From positions 1-38,307 of the forward strand of contig PKXF01000004.1 in the NCBI GenBank assembly GCA_003133385.1: a DNA stretch of 38,307 bases, in the 5' to 3' direction. Position 1 is the first letter of the stretch, and each line of letters begins with the position of its first letter. The stretch comes from Candidatus Saccharimonadota bacterium (lineage in GTDB: Bacteria > Patescibacteriota > Saccharimonadia > Saccharimonadales > UBA4665). This document shows positions 22,779 through 29,303 of this stretch, piece after piece. The position numbers and the translations under genes were made by a program. The notes under the pieces were generated by a model. The model worked only from the letters and a program-made list of their open reading frames with translations, did not search any database and had not been told where the DNA came from.

Positions 22779-23297
22779 ATGGCACTTAATAAAAAATCCG
22801 CGGCATATCTATCAAAGCACGTTGCTGCTTTACGTATTATTTTTGGACTGATATGGGGGATAGACGCTGCTTTCAAGTGGCAGCCGGCCTTCAAAAGCGG
22901 GTTCTTAGACCAGATCCAAGGTGCGGCTGTTGGACAACCTAGCTGGTTGCAGGGCTGGTTTAACTTCTGGATTCACTTGCTTGGGCATAACCCTCACTTA
23001 TTCGCATTCATTGTGGCCGTCGTAGAAAGCCTGATCGCCTTGGCCCTCATTTTCGGGATCGCCCGACGGGCTACTTACTTGTGGGCGGCGTTGTTTAGTC
23101 TGCTTATCTGGTCAATAGCTGAAGGTTTCGGCGGACCATATAGCGCTACATCAACCGACATCGGCACGGGCATTATCTATGCCATAGTATTCTTATCGCT
23201 ATATGGACTAGACCGGCTGGCAGGCCAGAGCAAATTGTCGTTGGATAACTACTTAAGCAAAAAGTTATCTTGGTGGCCAATCGTAGCTGAGCCTTAA
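22779..23297 (+). CDS. DoxX/DoxD-like membrane protein
   Basis: A 172-residue protein with four hydrophobic helices. The opening AALRIIFGLIWGIDAAFKWQ, the loop with WLQGWFNFWIHLLGHNP, and VVESLIALALIFGIARRATY fit the DoxX/TQO small-subunit family. Members take part in membrane redox or respond to thiol stress in some bacteria, though most are unassigned. It is convergent with the membrane gene at 23294, and the two stop codons share the bases TTAA. The nearby flavin operon makes a redox role possible but not shown. Confidence 0.75.
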   Translation: MALNKKSAAYLSKHVAALRIIFGLIWGIDAAFKWQPAFKSGFLDQIQGAAVGQPSWLQGWFNFWIHLLGHNPHLFAFIVAVVESLIALALIFGIARRATYLWAALFSLLIWSIAEGFGGPYSATSTDIGTGIIYAIVFLSLYGLDRLAGQSKLSLDNYLSKKLSWWPIVAEP

Positions 23298-23962
23298 AGG
23301 AGTTTACGAAAGGCCGGCAGTGACTGGTTGTTGACGCTGCAGCGCCAAGCTTGTTGCATGTGCGTCACTAAATGCGTAGGCGTTTGCACCCAACACTGTA
23401 CGCTATCGTGAAAAGCTATAATGAATAGTATGCCAAGGGCTATAACCGCCGGTATAATCACCGGCCATGAGTGTTTTACGTCTAAAACCCGCTTGAGCCA
23501 CGATGTTCTCCTATGCCTGATCAGATACAGCAAGTAGCTCGCACCGGCCAGCAGGAACGCTGTTAGCGGTAAGTATAGGACCCACAGCCCTAAAACAGGC
23601 CTTCGCCATAGCCAAGAGTTATACAAAGTATGGTTATTTATTGCCTTATCCAAGCCGTTAGCGGCGAGCGCAATGAAAAAAGGCAGCAGCAGCAAACCGC
23701 TAATAACGCTGGTGGTCTTTATATACGACGGGGTATCCTTCATATACACTCCGGAATATTGAATTTGTTGTTTGGCTATATTGAGCGGTAAATCAACCGC
23801 CACTTTGAGCCATATACGCGCCTTTGAACCGCTGCTTACGGAGTTGTCGAGCATGTCGGCGGTAGTTTGCAGTATTTGCCGGCCATACTCTTTACGGTAG
23901 CCGGCAGGGTAGAGACCGATCATCTTTGAATATATGGGAAACCTTTTATTCAACTTATCCAT
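23294..23962 (-). CDS. PadR-associated membrane protein
   Basis: A 222-residue protein. The soluble head with IGLYPAGYRKEYGRQILQTT resembles the permease-prefix domain that often accompanies PadR regulators. Three to four membrane helices follow (GLLLLPFFIALAA, GLWVLYLPLTAFLLAGASYL, WPVIIPAVIALGILFIIAFH). The ATG overlaps the end of the PadR gene by 13 nt, so the two are coupled. A His/Gln-rich tail contains two cysteines. Such pairs are thought to sense envelope stress, but the direct role is unknown. Confidence 0.7.
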   Translation of the reverse strand: MDKLNKRFPIYSKMIGLYPAGYRKEYGRQILQTTADMLDNSVSSGSKARIWLKVAVDLPLNIAKQQIQYSGVYMKDTPSYIKTTSVISGLLLLPFFIALAANGLDKAINNHTLYNSWLWRRPVLGLWVLYLPLTAFLLAGASYLLYLIRHRRTSWLKRVLDVKHSWPVIIPAVIALGILFIIAFHDSVQCWVQTPTHLVTHMQQAWRCSVNNQSLPAFRKLL

Positions 23963-24300
23963 GTCAGATCGCTCCCTAAGAACGCTTCAAATACTTTGCG
24001 CTGCCTAGCTATCTTCATGGTTTTATCAAAATATTCAAGTTCACCGTTGAGCCTGTCCCAACCTTTTTTGCTCAGCCGGTAGTATCGCCGCCTAATGTCA
24101 CTATCTGGGACTTCTTCTATATAATCATCTTCTTTCAGCTGTTTAATGGCGGTATACAGTGAGCCGGGGCCAAGCTTGATCTTACCTAACGAGTCGTCTT
24201 GCACTTGCTGCATTATTTCATAGCCATGGCGGGGCTTGAGGCTTAGGGCCATCAATATACTGAATGAGACCTGGGGCAATAAATTCATAGTCCGTTTCAT
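23950..24300 (-). CDS. PadR family transcriptional regulator
   Basis: A 116-residue winged-helix repressor. MALSLKPRHGYEIMQQVQDD is the PadR recognition region, GPGSLYTAIKQLKEDDYIEE the second helix and wing, and a short C-terminal helix serves dimerisation. The promoter's spacer holds a perfect 9-bp inverted repeat (24311-24331), so negative autoregulation is very likely. ATG comes 7 nt after the -10, giving a leaderless mRNA. It is transcribed in the same direction as the flavin operon ending at 24354 and overlaps the membrane gene downstream. Confidence 0.92.
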   Translation of the reverse strand: MKRTMNLLPQVSFSILMALSLKPRHGYEIMQQVQDDSLGKIKLGPGSLYTAIKQLKEDDYIEEVPDSDIRRRYYRLSKKGWDRLNGELEYFDKTMKIARQRKVFEAFLGSDLTWIS

Positions 24301-24353: not shown

Positions 24354-25880
24354 TCAGGCGTAACCGGGGAAAAAGTCTACCTTAATATTGTGGTGGCTGA
24401 CGCCTAATTCTCTAAGAATGTGCCGCATGGCGCTTACCATTGAGTGGGTTCCGGATATATAAAAGACCCGGTCGGCATAATCTGGTACGGCCTGTTTTAT
24501 TAAACCGCCGTTTATATAGCCGGCAATAGTATGGGAGCCGTCGCTAATTGTGGCATCGCGGTCAGTTACGTTATAGATGGTATTGACGCCAATAGCATTC
24601 CTAGCCTCCTCAAAAATATTTTTGTAGGCTATATCGGCTTCATTGCGCACCGAGTACAGCAAGGTGACCGCTCGACTATCGTTTTTGTCGGTTAAGTATT
24701 TGACCATGCTCCTAAAAGGCGTTATACCGATGCCGCCGGCAATAAAAACCAGTTTCTTGGCAGGATCCTTCGGCATAACAAAATCGCCCGCCAGCTGCGA
24801 GGCAACTATGTAGGTGTCCTTATCCATATCAAGCAGGGCATTTTTGTAACTGCTGCTTTTATCGTAAAACTTAACGCCGATTCTAAGATCGGGCTCAGTT
24901 GGCGATGAAGCTAGTGTGAAGTAGCGTCGGCTGCCGCGCGAGTCGTTTTTTTGATGCGCCAAGGTCCATTCCATGTATTGTCCCGGCCGATATTTGAATT
25001 TACGTTGCGGGCTGAAAACGAAATCTGCGCTATAGGTGGCAGTCTTGGACTTTTGCTTCAACCTCATGAAAAGCTTGGTTTTAGGGCTTACTAGATATGA
25101 AAAAACGTTGCCGGCGACCAATGCAAGTTCCGGCGAAGAGTAGAAGTTTAATACGTGTACCTGCGGGGGCAGCAGGCAGCCGACCAATACCGCGTACCAG
25201 GTTTGTTTTTTGGCGGTTGTCGGTGATGTAAGCGGCTCTGTCAACATTACAAATCCCAGGAAGAAAACCGCTGAGCTCAGAATCATATTGTGCAAGTTGG
25301 ACATAACACTAGCTTTAGTAAGCACAGAATATAAAATAGTCGAAAAGAACACGGCGCCAAAAAAACTTAGCACCATTTGCTCATGCCGTATTTTTCTCAT
25401 AATAAGAATACCGCCAGCCAGTACGAAGGGCAGCATGTAGGCTGTACCGATCCACCAGCTTGCCGTCTGTCTGGGGCCGAAAGCGGTCAGCACGACGGCA
25501 ATTGCCGCCGGGTTAAAGATATGTTTTTCCCGTATAGTCAATAAATACTTCGACCCCATAGCCAATCCTGACGCTGCCAGCAAAAACAAAATTCCGTATC
25601 CGGTGGGGTTTGGCGTAATAATTAGCGCCAGGATGAGGGCAGTGATAAGCGAAGATTCCGGGTTAGTCGGTGCATCGAAAATATATGAAAATACCTTATT
25701 AATAATCCAACAGGCACCGACTAATATAAGCGAGGAGATTACGATATAAAGCGGCTTATAATGAAGATCGCCAAAAGCACTAAGCGTAGCAGCTATAGCC
25801 AGCAAGGCTATTAAGTAGTACAGCAACAGCCGGTACATAGTGATACTGTCTATCAACTTGTCTAACGCTTTAAGCATCAT
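24354..25880 (-). CDS. NqrB/RnfD-like membrane domain fused to ferredoxin-NAD(P)+ reductase domain
   Basis: A fusion of about 508 residues. The first 270 or so hold about nine hydrophobic helices of the NqrB/RnfD type, with NPESSLITALILALII, FNPAAIAVVLTAFG and MLTEPLTSPTTAKKQ, the SPxT-bearing loop. The C-terminal 230 residues are an FNR module: RRYFTLASSP binds FAD, FIAGGIGITPFRSM binds NAD(P)H, and the protein ends VDFFPGYA. The design carries electrons from cytosolic NAD(P)H through FAD into the membrane. The start is set at ATG 25880 (GTG 25904 or ATG 25877 are possible); it overlaps apbE by 11 nt. With apbE and the FMN-binding gene it forms one operon. Confidence 0.87.
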   Translation of the reverse strand: MMLKALDKLIDSITMYRLLLYYLIALLAIAATLSAFGDLHYKPLYIVISSLILVGACWIINKVFSYIFDAPTNPESSLITALILALIITPNPTGYGILFLLAASGLAMGSKYLLTIREKHIFNPAAIAVVLTAFGPRQTASWWIGTAYMLPFVLAGGILIMRKIRHEQMVLSFFGAVFFSTILYSVLTKASVMSNLHNMILSSAVFFLGFVMLTEPLTSPTTAKKQTWYAVLVGCLLPPQVHVLNFYSSPELALVAGNVFSYLVSPKTKLFMRLKQKSKTATYSADFVFSPQRKFKYRPGQYMEWTLAHQKNDSRGSRRYFTLASSPTEPDLRIGVKFYDKSSSYKNALLDMDKDTYIVASQLAGDFVMPKDPAKKLVFIAGGIGITPFRSMVKYLTDKNDSRAVTLLYSVRNEADIAYKNIFEEARNAIGVNTIYNVTDRDATISDGSHTIAGYINGGLIKQAVPDYADRVFYISGTHSMVSAMRHILRELGVSHHNIKVDFFPGYA

Positions 25881-26613
25881 TCTCAACATAGCCTTCAAAA
25901 CCACTGGTATAGGTGGCTATTTTTTCTGAATTTACCATATAACCCTCTAGCCCGGGCGTCGCTTCGATGAAAGAAATACCGTTGTCGCCCATCGCGAAAG
26001 CAGCCGTAGCGTAACGGTCGGCTTCGTAGACATTATCAGCTATAACGCTCAGACTTTTTACGTTCGTTATCTCTTGGGCTATATTATGGGGGTTATAGAT
26101 ATGCTGCCCGCGAATATACGTCCCCGAGGTGGCCATGCCCTGATTATTGAGACGGACAGCTTTAATAATTTCATGTATGTCAAACGGGTTTCTTATGCCC
26201 ACGGCCCAAGGTTGCCCCCCGGGGTTCATGCCTTGGGCCTGGATGTCGCCGCCGGCCTCTATATAAAAATTCTTTAGGCCTTTGTCCAGAAGCATCTGTG
26301 CGGCATTATTGACAGACCAGCCTTTGACTAAACCCGAAGGATCGAGTTTGCCTTGGTAGTGAATATCAAAGTAGCCTTTAGTCAGCCTTTTGGTCTCCTC
26401 GCATAAGTCCAAAACAGCCTTCATTTGCGGGCTCCATTGTTTTTTAGGCAAACCCTTGTTAATTTTAGAGATTTCACTGGTCGTCTTATAGGTACTGAAT
26501 CGCTCATCGACACTTTTGAAGTATTTAAAAACGCTATCAAGATCACTGCCGGAAATTGTATCTACAACCTCTACGGTTATTGGCATGCCCATTATTATTT
26601 TGGTTTTTTTCAT
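25870..26613 (-). CDS. apbE: FAD:protein FMN transferase, ApbE family
   Basis: ApbE attaches FMN from FAD to a threonine of target proteins. The 247 residues begin straight at MKKTKIIMGMPITVEVV, at the catalytic domain, without the lipoprotein or Tat/Sec signal of typical ApbE (about 330 residues). Family blocks are KLDPSGLVKGWSVNNA, FYIEAGGDIQAQG, SGTYIRGQHIYNPHN and YEADRYATAAFAMG. The gene sits between the likely acceptor (26626-27138, 12 nt upstream) and the NqrB-FNR fusion. The missing signal suggests work in the cytosol before export, or an unrecognised route out. Confidence 0.92.
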   Translation of the reverse strand: MKKTKIIMGMPITVEVVDTISGSDLDSVFKYFKSVDERFSTYKTTSEISKINKGLPKKQWSPQMKAVLDLCEETKRLTKGYFDIHYQGKLDPSGLVKGWSVNNAAQMLLDKGLKNFYIEAGGDIQAQGMNPGGQPWAVGIRNPFDIHEIIKAVRLNNQGMATSGTYIRGQHIYNPHNIAQEITNVKSLSVIADNVYEADRYATAAFAMGDNGISFIEATPGLEGYMVNSEKIATYTSGFEGYVENDA

Positions 26614-26625
26614 TAACTCCTCTTT

Positions 26626-27138
26626 TTATGCCTGGGACAATGCCGAAGTGAGTGACTGGACAAAGGCCTGGGAAGTAAAGGTCGCTCCTGAAATTAACTG
26701 GACGTTTGGACTTTGGGCCTGGATGGCTTCCTGCTGCAAGTAGGGCATGGCTTGCTGGTTAATAGCTACTGAAGTTGAGTGCGTATTCGGGTATTGCAGG
26801 AACTTAACGTTAGTTATCTTGCCGCCGGATACAGTGACAGAGACCTGAACGTTACCGTAATAGGCATCGGCTACACTGCCGGTATACGTGCCGTCTTTGT
26901 ACTTGCCGCTAGTCGAAGTTGACGTTGGAGGTGGGCTAGCAGTAGTCGAGCTGCCCGTATTGCCGGATGGGGTGGTAGAGCTGCTGCCCGAAGGCGGCGT
27001 AGAACTACTGGGCGTCGAGCCGCTGGCAACCAGCGATGACGGCTTCGCGAGAACAGGGGATTGGTGGCGGATGCCGGCGCTGTAAATTAGGAAAATACCC
27101 AGTACGGCCAGGCTAAGCATAAATTTTTTTATGAGCAT
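26626..27138 (-). CDS. Extracytosolic FMN-binding domain protein
   Basis: A 170-residue protein with a membrane anchor or signal (KKFMLSLAVLGIFLIYSAG, 4-22), a Ser/Thr/Pro/Gly linker of about 55 residues (33-77, rich in SSSTPP repeats) and an FMN-binding domain (79-170). The domain has YKDGTYTGSVADAYYGNVQV and the flavinylation site LISGATFTSQAF, with Thr153 as the probable FMN acceptor. It resembles the RnfG/NqrC domain. AAGGA lies 11 nt before ATG. As first gene of the operon it should be the extracytosolic flavin carrier that accepts electrons from the NqrB-FNR protein and passes them to an unknown partner. Confidence 0.92.
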   Translation of the reverse strand: MLIKKFMLSLAVLGIFLIYSAGIRHQSPVLAKPSSLVASGSTPSSSTPPSGSSSTTPSGNTGSSTTASPPPTSTSTSGKYKDGTYTGSVADAYYGNVQVSVTVSGGKITNVKFLQYPNTHSTSVAINQQAMPYLQQEAIQAQSPNVQLISGATFTSQAFVQSLTSALSQA

Positions 27139-27292: not shown

Positions 27293-28018
27293 TTATGCTT
27301 GTTTCCTCTTCCTGGCGTCAATATGAACTTTTTGGGCTAAACTATCGTCCAGCGGGGCCAATTTCTCTGAATCTTCACCTCTGTTAATAAGGGCGTGGCT
27401 AATAAGAGCATCGGCCAGAACCGGATTCTTTGGCAAGAGCGCGCCGTGCAAGTAAGTACCGTAAATATTCTTGGTAACCGCTCCTTCGTTATGGCCCGAC
27501 GGGTCATTGCCATAGCCTAACTTGACTTTGCCAAATGGTGTCTGGGAAGGCTCAAGAACCGTCTTCCCGCTATGGTTTTCAAAACCGATTAGCTCGCCAA
27601 ATTCGGTCTCGGTGATAATATTGCCAATCATGCGTTTGCCAATTCCTATAGTCTCGGCATCAAAAATACCAATACCGGCCAGCTCTTGGTTATCGGCCGT
27701 AACAAAGCGCTTGCCGAATAACTGGTAAAGGCCGCAGACCATGAGCATAGGCACGTTATTATCTGCCAGCTGGTGTAGGCCGCCGCCGATGCGAAGCAAA
27801 TCGGCGTGTATAGTAAGTTGCCCGGTATCTTGCCCCCCTCCGCCGACAATGATGTCGACATTCTTTGGCAGACTATCGCCAATTTTGTGATAGAGCACAT
27901 TAGCCTCAAGACCGCGCCATTCCAGGCGTCGCACCAAGGCTAAAACATTGCCATAGTCACCATAAAAATTCATCTCATCAGGATATAAATACAATATTTT
28001 CAGCGGGCTTTTTTTCAT
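27293..28018 (-). CDS. gatD: Lipid II isoglutaminyl synthase, glutaminase subunit GatD
   Basis: GatD supplies ammonia from glutamine to MurT for amidating the D-glutamate of lipid II. The 241-residue class I glutaminase domain has GGGGQDTGQ (59-67), the catalytic Cys95 in MVCGLYQLFG and His191 in GTYLHGALL. The start overlaps the end of murT by 4 nt (ATGA). Amidated peptidoglycan is typical of Gram-positive-type walls; here it fits the single-membrane envelope of Saccharibacteria. No promoter of its own. Confidence 0.93.
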   Translation of the reverse strand: MKKSPLKILYLYPDEMNFYGDYGNVLALVRRLEWRGLEANVLYHKIGDSLPKNVDIIVGGGGQDTGQLTIHADLLRIGGGLHQLADNNVPMLMVCGLYQLFGKRFVTADNQELAGIGIFDAETIGIGKRMIGNIITETEFGELIGFENHSGKTVLEPSQTPFGKVKLGYGNDPSGHNEGAVTKNIYGTYLHGALLPKNPVLADALISHALINRGEDSEKLAPLDDSLAQKVHIDARKRKQA

Positions 28019-29295
28019 AAGCCGGGCCCCATAACGGCAGTCTTCTTAAGGATAGCCCGGATGGCGAGCATAGCTGTATAGGTACAAAATACGCGGCGTG
28101 GCAAGGATGAGCTCGCGTTAAGTAAACTTGCGAGCGCCAGTTCCAGGTTAATCTCGGTCTTGCTAAGCTCGATGTTGTCATACTTTAAACGAAGTGCCAT
28201 ATCATTAGCCCGGATGCCGGATGCCACATAAATATGCGGACTGTAGCCCGAGAAGTCAACGTCCCATAGCCACGATACGTCCCGGCCGTCAGCATGATTA
28301 TCATTAATTGCAATCATGGTTAACGCTTCGCTAGCGTGGGAAGCCAAACCTTGCCGGAAGCTGCTGGGATTTTTGACCAGTATAAGCTCCAGCCAGTGCT
28401 CGCCAACTTTGATCGATTCACCGCGTCCAAACGCCGGCTCGATATGTTTAAGGGACTCTAGCCAACCCGCAACACTGACTTTAGGCATTACCATATTGGC
28501 GATGGTGAGTGCGGCAGCCGCATTGTGAAAATTATATTGTCCTTTCAGCTTCAAACGCACCTCGTGGATGTGTCCGCCTATCCTATAACTAACTTGTTGG
28601 TCTTGAAAGTCATTCAGCATGACCGTCAGCTGGGTACGGTGGGACTTTGGCGGAGTGGCAGTAAAAACTTTCATAAGCTCGGCGTCTGTAGGGAAAAGCT
28701 GACGCAAATTAGGCTTGACGCCGTAATAGGCGACGGGAACCTTTAAACCGTAGCCGATAGCCACAAGCTCCGGCTCGTCGCCGTTAATTACACAGCCATT
28801 GGTCGCAGATTGCAGTATGGAAGCAAGCATCTTTGTGGTTACCGCTAGTTCGCCAAAACGGTCTAATTGATCCCGCATAACGTTAAGGGCTACGACGTAT
28901 TGCGGCTTGACACGCTCAACAAATAACCGGCCGTAGGCTTCATCAAGCTCTAAAACCGCAATGTCCTTATGTAGAGCCCTGTCCTTCAGCTTATAATCGC
29001 TGACGATGGTAGCAATAATGCCCCGCATAAAGTTGCTGCCTGACGCGTTGGTGAGCACACGCTTACCCTGCGAAGTTAGTAGTTCGCTAATGATCTTGGT
29101 AGTCGTAGTTTTGCCATTGGTACCGACAACTACGATAACCCCGTCGTCTAAACTGCCTAGCACCTCATTTATAAACTGCGGCATAATTTTCTCAATAACC
29201 AGGCCAGGCAGTGCTGAGCCGCCATGACCGACTAGCCGACTTAGGCCCCTAACAAGCTTTCCGATAAGTATTGCGACTAAAACACGCCTTTTCAT
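28015..29295 (-). CDS. murT: Lipid II isoglutaminyl synthase, Mur ligase-like subunit MurT
   Basis: MurT activates the alpha-carboxyl of D-iGlu in lipid II with ATP and uses ammonia from GatD. The 426 residues contain the P-loop VVVGTNGKTTTTK (55-67), ELDEAYG, NVMRDQLDRFGE and the C-terminal block NDNHADGRDVSWLWDVDFSG, which carries the catalytic Asp in known MurT. The Cys4 zinc ribbon usually inserted in the middle domain is absent: the stretch after VINGDEPELVAIG has no cysteine pair. ATG 29295 is chosen over the in-frame TTG at 29301; TATACT on the minus strand (29304-29309) ends 8 nt upstream with no Shine-Dalgarno. Confidence 0.93.
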   Translation of the reverse strand: MKRRVLVAILIGKLVRGLSRLVGHGGSALPGLVIEKIMPQFINEVLGSLDDGVIVVVGTNGKTTTTKIISELLTSQGKRVLTNASGSNFMRGIIATIVSDYKLKDRALHKDIAVLELDEAYGRLFVERVKPQYVVALNVMRDQLDRFGELAVTTKMLASILQSATNGCVINGDEPELVAIGYGLKVPVAYYGVKPNLRQLFPTDAELMKVFTATPPKSHRTQLTVMLNDFQDQQVSYRIGGHIHEVRLKLKGQYNFHNAAAALTIANMVMPKVSVAGWLESLKHIEPAFGRGESIKVGEHWLELILVKNPSSFRQGLASHASEALTMIAINDNHADGRDVSWLWDVDFSGYSPHIYVASGIRANDMALRLKYDNIELSKTEINLELALASLLNASSSLPRRVFCTYTAMLAIRAILKKTAVMGPGL

Positions 29296-29303
29296 ATGCA
29301 ACC

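Follow-up and report, generated by a model that had tools for sequence, protein, structure and literature searches.

A three-gene cassette on the minus strand, at 24354-27138 of the window (the whole 38,307-nucleotide stretch of DNA analysed, G000:C3:1-38307), almost certainly belongs to the published NQR/RNF-like class. It probably encodes a two-component transmembrane module with its own flavin transferase, by which electrons would be exported to a covalently bound FMN on the outer face. The cassette type is already published, and the electron-export mechanism is the one proposed for it in print; this locus adds a member. The source genome, one of the Saccharibacteria, is 1.09 Mb and 95.85% complete.

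Cassette layout and gene identities

The order along the minus strand is FMN_bind, ApbE, fusion. The FMN_bind protein gene (26626..27138) encodes 170 aa and matches Pfam PF04205 (E=1.6e-11). It is followed by the gene for ApbE, a FAD:protein FMN transferase (25870..26613; 247 aa; PF02424, E=2.8e-42), and by the NQR/RNF-like fusion gene (24354..25904; 516 aa), with matches to PF03116 NQR2_RnfD_RnfE (E=1.9e-11) and PF00175 NAD_binding_1 (E=3e-15). These three identities are as good as certain, and the positions of the open reading frames and their Pfam matches agree with the preliminary description, which had placed genes of these kinds here. It had also described one overlapping operon. This holds for ApbE and the fusion gene, the only pair that overlaps, and not for FMN_bind and ApbE, which are separated by a gap of 12 nt. 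The sequence GAGGAG, which resembles a ribosome binding site, lies in front of the ApbE ATG. Orthologous cassettes are found in many relatives, with fusion proteins 52-64% identical to that of the window, and the cassette is therefore not a chance arrangement.

Members of the NQR/RNF-like class have an N-terminal PF03116 domain and a C-terminal PF00175 domain in one protein, encoded within five genes of an ApbE or FMN_bind gene. In the window, both domains are above the Pfam cut-offs and in the right order, and the fusion gene shares its cassette with both an ApbE and an FMN_bind gene.

The fusion protein

The NqrB/RnfD-like membrane domain occupies approximately residues 1-272 of the fusion protein and the FAD/NAD(P)H reductase domain approximately residues 275-515. 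The NCBIfam matches are to rnfD (1e-7) and nqrF (9e-14). The GTG start is uncertain, as many orthologs begin about 9 codons further in, and the true start may lie up to about 10 codons downstream.

In the structural model (pLDDT 84) the reductase domain resembles NqrF and flavohemoprotein reductases, with a Z of 26.4 to NqrF 4u9u (rmsd 2.5, 237 aligned). It carries the FAD- and NAD-binding motifs GQYMEW (308), RRYFTLAS (326) and GGIGITPFRS (390), whose core residues vary little or not at all among 23 sequences. The matches listed in the fold search were all to the reductase domain, which crowded out the NqrB half, and the search therefore has no bearing on the fold of that half. By sequence the membrane domain is a weak match to RnfD and NqrB chains in profile comparison (E 3.3e-5 and 0.005, respectively), and it has the NPA (131) and T-[DE]-P (222-224) motifs common to NqrB/RnfD; the stretch of NqrB that runs from NPA to the second half has a shorter counterpart in the window protein.

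A motif scan of the window fusion protein did not find the covalent-FMN motif [SDT]GA[TS], and the available text of a 2024 mSystems study (PMC11334425) describes the NqrB/RnfD flavin site as missing from the NQR/RNF-like membrane domain. There are only two cysteines in the fusion protein, too few for an FeS cluster domain with cysteine ligands to be expected. PF02508 (NqrD/E, RnfA/E) was unmatched in the 95.85% complete genome by a search that detects it in four control genomes, which makes a full NQR or RNF complex unlikely.

The FMN_bind protein

The FMN_bind gene is the sole copy found in the genome. Its product has a hydrophobic N-terminal segment at about residues 6-23 (KD mean 2.2 over 17 residues), a stalk at about residues 33-80 that is 75% Ser/Thr/Pro, and a C-terminal FMN-binding domain at residues 84-170 (E 1.2e-14 to the FMN-binding domain of PDB 8p2a). 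The SGAT sequence at residues 150-153 gives Thr153 as the predicted flavinylation site; motif position and composition agree with the acceptor and the stalk as originally described. Acceptors of the [ST]GA[ST] type are present in nearly all of the clusters examined, with SGSS, AGAS and AGSS as variants in some relatives. By eye, neither a cysteine lipobox nor a twin-arginine motif was seen in the protein.

Proposed electron path and neighbouring genes

In the proposed mechanism, the reductase domain would oxidise cytosolic NAD(P)H and pass the electrons to FAD, and they would then cross the NqrB-like membrane domain via a non-covalently held flavin. ApbE would link FMN covalently to the stalked FMN_bind protein, at Thr153. 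This covalent FMN on the outer face would be reduced and would in turn reduce an external acceptor, for example Fe(III), a quinone, or a radical or oxidant; confidence in any particular acceptor is low. The corresponding published reading, in the available portions of PMC8238504 and PMC11334425, is one of unidirectional electron export.

A specific version of this explanation, and one not exclusive of it, is that the main job of the cassette is assimilatory ferric reduction. A VIT1 iron transporter is present in six published NQR/RNF-like clusters, according to the portion of PMC8238504 available, and the flanks of the relatives include one VIT1 and two FUR-family regulators. These are, however, just 1 and 2 of the 65 flanking proteins scanned, and no iron gene adjoins the window cassette. 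A primary role in ferric reduction is thus conceivable and on balance unlikely.

Among the same 65 flanking proteins no family occurs more than three times, and they offered no candidate for a partner or acceptor protein. The suggestion that the module acts on a host found no support, there being no neighbouring gene that is conserved in the relatives. In the window, GatD/MurT-like lipid II amidation genes are directly upstream of the cassette (27293-29301; GatD matches NCBIfam at 1e-47, under the family cut-off). Downstream, on the same strand, are a PadR-family regulator and then a membrane protein that falls in no Pfam family (23294-24300). A strong promoter-like site (11/12) lies between the cassette and the PadR regulator, at 24337-24308. 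At the start of the window, at 52-211, there is a ribosomal protein L10 leader RNA with a score barely over the Rfam gathering score.

ApbE and the site of flavinylation

The window ApbE is the only one found in the genome. Its model (pLDDT 92.5) matches solved ApbE structures over its whole length, including T. maritima ApbE 1vrm (Z 29.3, rmsd 1.9, 242 aligned) and FmnB 7esa (Z 27.5). Residues H171, D199 and T203 are invariant in 19 orthologs and align with the His, Asp and Thr of known ApbEs. The fold and active-site motifs are those of the ApbE FMN transferase type, and transfer of FMN is predicted on this basis. The protein is a short form, lacking roughly Pfam profile positions 76-125, a shortening common to the orthologs, and it has no signal peptide: it opens directly at the first strand of the fold, with an in-frame stop 5 codons upstream of the ATG. 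The ApbE N-termini in the other cassettes examined are likewise not hydrophobic.

The absence of a signal peptide is not peculiar to this cassette within the Saccharibacteria: 14 other ApbEs of relatives, whose genes lie in different clusters, have no hydrophobic N-terminus either. Many Saccharibacteria (L146-L159) have a second kind of ApbE, of about 300-330 aa and also without a signal peptide. At the five loci examined it adjoins a reductase-like ORF of 344-395 aa and an ORF of 209-253 aa; no clear FMN_bind gene adjoins the loci of this kind.

The path from NAD(P)H through FAD and the NqrB-like domain to an external covalent FMN, as given in the preliminary description, fits the sequence, the conservation and the published proposal; its simple form is complicated by an ApbE without an export signal. 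FMN might be attached in the cytosol, ahead of export or while it is under way; alternatively, the FMN domain might face inward.

In the second case the FMN domain would be cytosolic, within reach of the signal-less ApbE found in the cassettes examined, and the cassette would be an NAD(P)H-dependent reductase at the inner membrane face. The charge bias at the hydrophobic segment favours neither orientation: just 23 of 45 FMN proteins have the more positive charge on the N-flank, and the flank charges around the single segment of the window protein are equal. This bias being weak, the outward topology rests on homology to NqrC and RnfG, which bear FMN on the outer face. Long Ser/Thr/Pro stalks are likewise typical of exterior proteins. 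A cytosolic ApbE with a cytosolic substrate is described for Klebsiella in a review. Against this, in the available part of PMC11334425, the model of a Ktedonobacter pair has the FMN domain outside. An inward-facing domain is accordingly improbable.

As to the first case, ApbE labels tags as short as seven residues, according to a review, which makes modification before or during export possible. An older growth assay cited in that review, however, found that a truncated cytosolic ApbE could not replace periplasmic ApbE. Tentatively, a dedicated cytosolic ApbE might flavinylate the carrier before or during translocation, so that the carrier leaves the cell already flavinylated; this might apply to NQR/RNF-like systems in general, some of them in organisms that perhaps depend on FAD import. 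If true, it would differ from the flavinylation outside the cell known for NqrC, RnfG and PplA. The location of ApbE in the class is not discussed in the available text of PMC8238504 and PMC11334425, and no prior statement of a signal-less cassette ApbE paired with an exported-looking substrate was found in the available literature. The signal-less ApbE makes the membrane side and the timing of flavinylation of an exported flavoprotein testable.

Respiratory chain and flavin supply

The preliminary description had expected the organism to lack a respiratory chain and offered a compact redox outlet as one possible role of the cassette. The premise is wrong for the present genome, and a role as outlet in place of respiration can be ruled out for it. 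The contig that carries the cassette also encodes CyoA, CyoB, CyoC, CyoD and heme o synthase (cyoABCDE-type, a cytochrome bo quinol oxidase), an NDH-2-like protein, whose best curated family is the general pyridine nucleotide-disulfide oxidoreductase, below its cut-off, and F-type ATPase subunits recognised by eye from the translations. Cytochrome bo oxidases of soil Saccharibacteria have already been published. With ordinary oxygen-using respiratory genes present, the cassette should be seen as an additional outlet rather than a substitute. In 59 relatives no link between the cassette and a heme-copper oxidase was shown, the oxidase being present in 19 of 23 with the cassette and 24 of 36 without it (Fisher p=0.24). 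In two nearly complete relatives with the cassette, G035 (97%) and G053 (99%), no heme-copper oxidase was detected, so the cassette is not dependent on the oxidase.

An alternative is that the cassette is an ion pump, a reduced form of Na+-NQR that feeds the quinone pool. The oxidase needs quinol, and for a related Saccharibacteria protein with NqrB and NqrF domains, that of Ca. T. rhizospherense, Starr et al. 2018 (PMC6031116) proposed Na+ translocation. This reading is improbable, given the lack of a detected NqrD/E-type subunit, the absent NqrB/RnfD covalent flavin motif, the published reading of unidirectional export and the two cassette-bearing genomes with no oxidase detected.

A stand-alone flavokinase domain (PF01687) is encoded elsewhere in the genome (C2:97982-98335), and the FAD synthetase domain (PF06574) was not detected there. 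Among the 59 relatives there are just two sub-threshold matches to FAD synthetase, and PF01687 and PF06574 are both lacking in most. This suggests import of FMN and FAD, or their synthesis by an enzyme that escaped recognition.

Distribution of the cassette

Homologs of the membrane domain, whole or in part, are present in 23 of the 59 relatives. The three-gene order was surveyed in these relatives, and it recurs in loci from the same taxonomic family and order: FMN_bind, ApbE and fusion keep their arrangement in nearly all complete loci, the exceptions being one copy (L042) and a few loci cut by contig ends. The genome with that copy, G008, has two cassette copies, and L042 consists of FMN_bind and the fusion with no ApbE detected alongside.

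Within a sample of 287 Patescibacteria genomes, 58 have the membrane domain. Of these, 44 have it in a frame of 480 aa or more, taken to be the fused form, and the other 14 in one of 254-323 aa, taken to be a membrane protein on its own. NqrB/RnfD-like membrane proteins without a fused reductase are also found at L091 and L092, the latter in an alphaproteobacterial MAG, where the protein adjoins ApbE and an FMN_bind-like ORF. The cassette is also present in other Patescibacteria, in Chloroflexota (Dictyobacter and Ktedonospora of the Ktedonobacteria, and an Anaerolineaceae MAG), in a Mesorhizobium, and in the Actinomycetota Agreia, Schumannella, Aeromicrobium and Nocardioides.

The tree places the window protein, with good support, in a Saccharibacteria group that is itself nested among sequences of other Patescibacteria and of Chloroflexota. 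Outside this group fall five copies from Saccharibacteria, with longer ApbEs (286-300 aa) and the Ser acceptors AGAS, SGAS and SGSS. There are therefore at least two cassette lineages in the Saccharibacteria, and one genome (G017) carries both. In the available text of a 2021 survey (Meheust 2021 eLife, PMC8238504), Actinobacteria and the candidate phyla radiation (CPR) are the two groups that chiefly hold the system, and the cassette is not unexpected here. Its spread in 44 of the 287 sampled genomes marks it as a common part of the Patescibacteria toolkit, and it illustrates, in compact form, a way in which very small bacteria of the symbiotic type may export electrons.

Comparison with known systems

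With Na+-NQR and RNF the cassette shares a homologous NqrB/RnfD membrane domain, an NqrC/RnfG-like FMN domain and an NqrF-like reductase; the differences are that the genome yielded no NqrD/E-type subunit and that the membrane domain lacks a covalent FMN site. An ApbE-family enzyme of the same fold likewise serves an exported FMN carrier in Listeria extracellular electron transfer (FmnB/PplA). FmnB works outside the cell, according to the available part of a report in mBio 2023, whereas the window ApbE has no export signal.

The fused protein described by Starr et al. 2018 comes from a soil Saccharibacterium, Ca. Teamsevenus rhizospherense, and has NqrB-like and NqrF-like parts in one chain, in a genome that also has Ndh and cyo. 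The 2018 description gives that protein an FeS domain and interprets it as a Na+ channel; the window protein has just its two cysteines. The closest likeness is with the NQR/RNF-like system, with which the cassette shares the FMN_bind protein, ApbE, the PF03116-PF00175 fusion and a membrane domain lacking the covalent flavin motif. The window ApbE is short and signal-less, and nothing in the cassette breaks the definition of the class.
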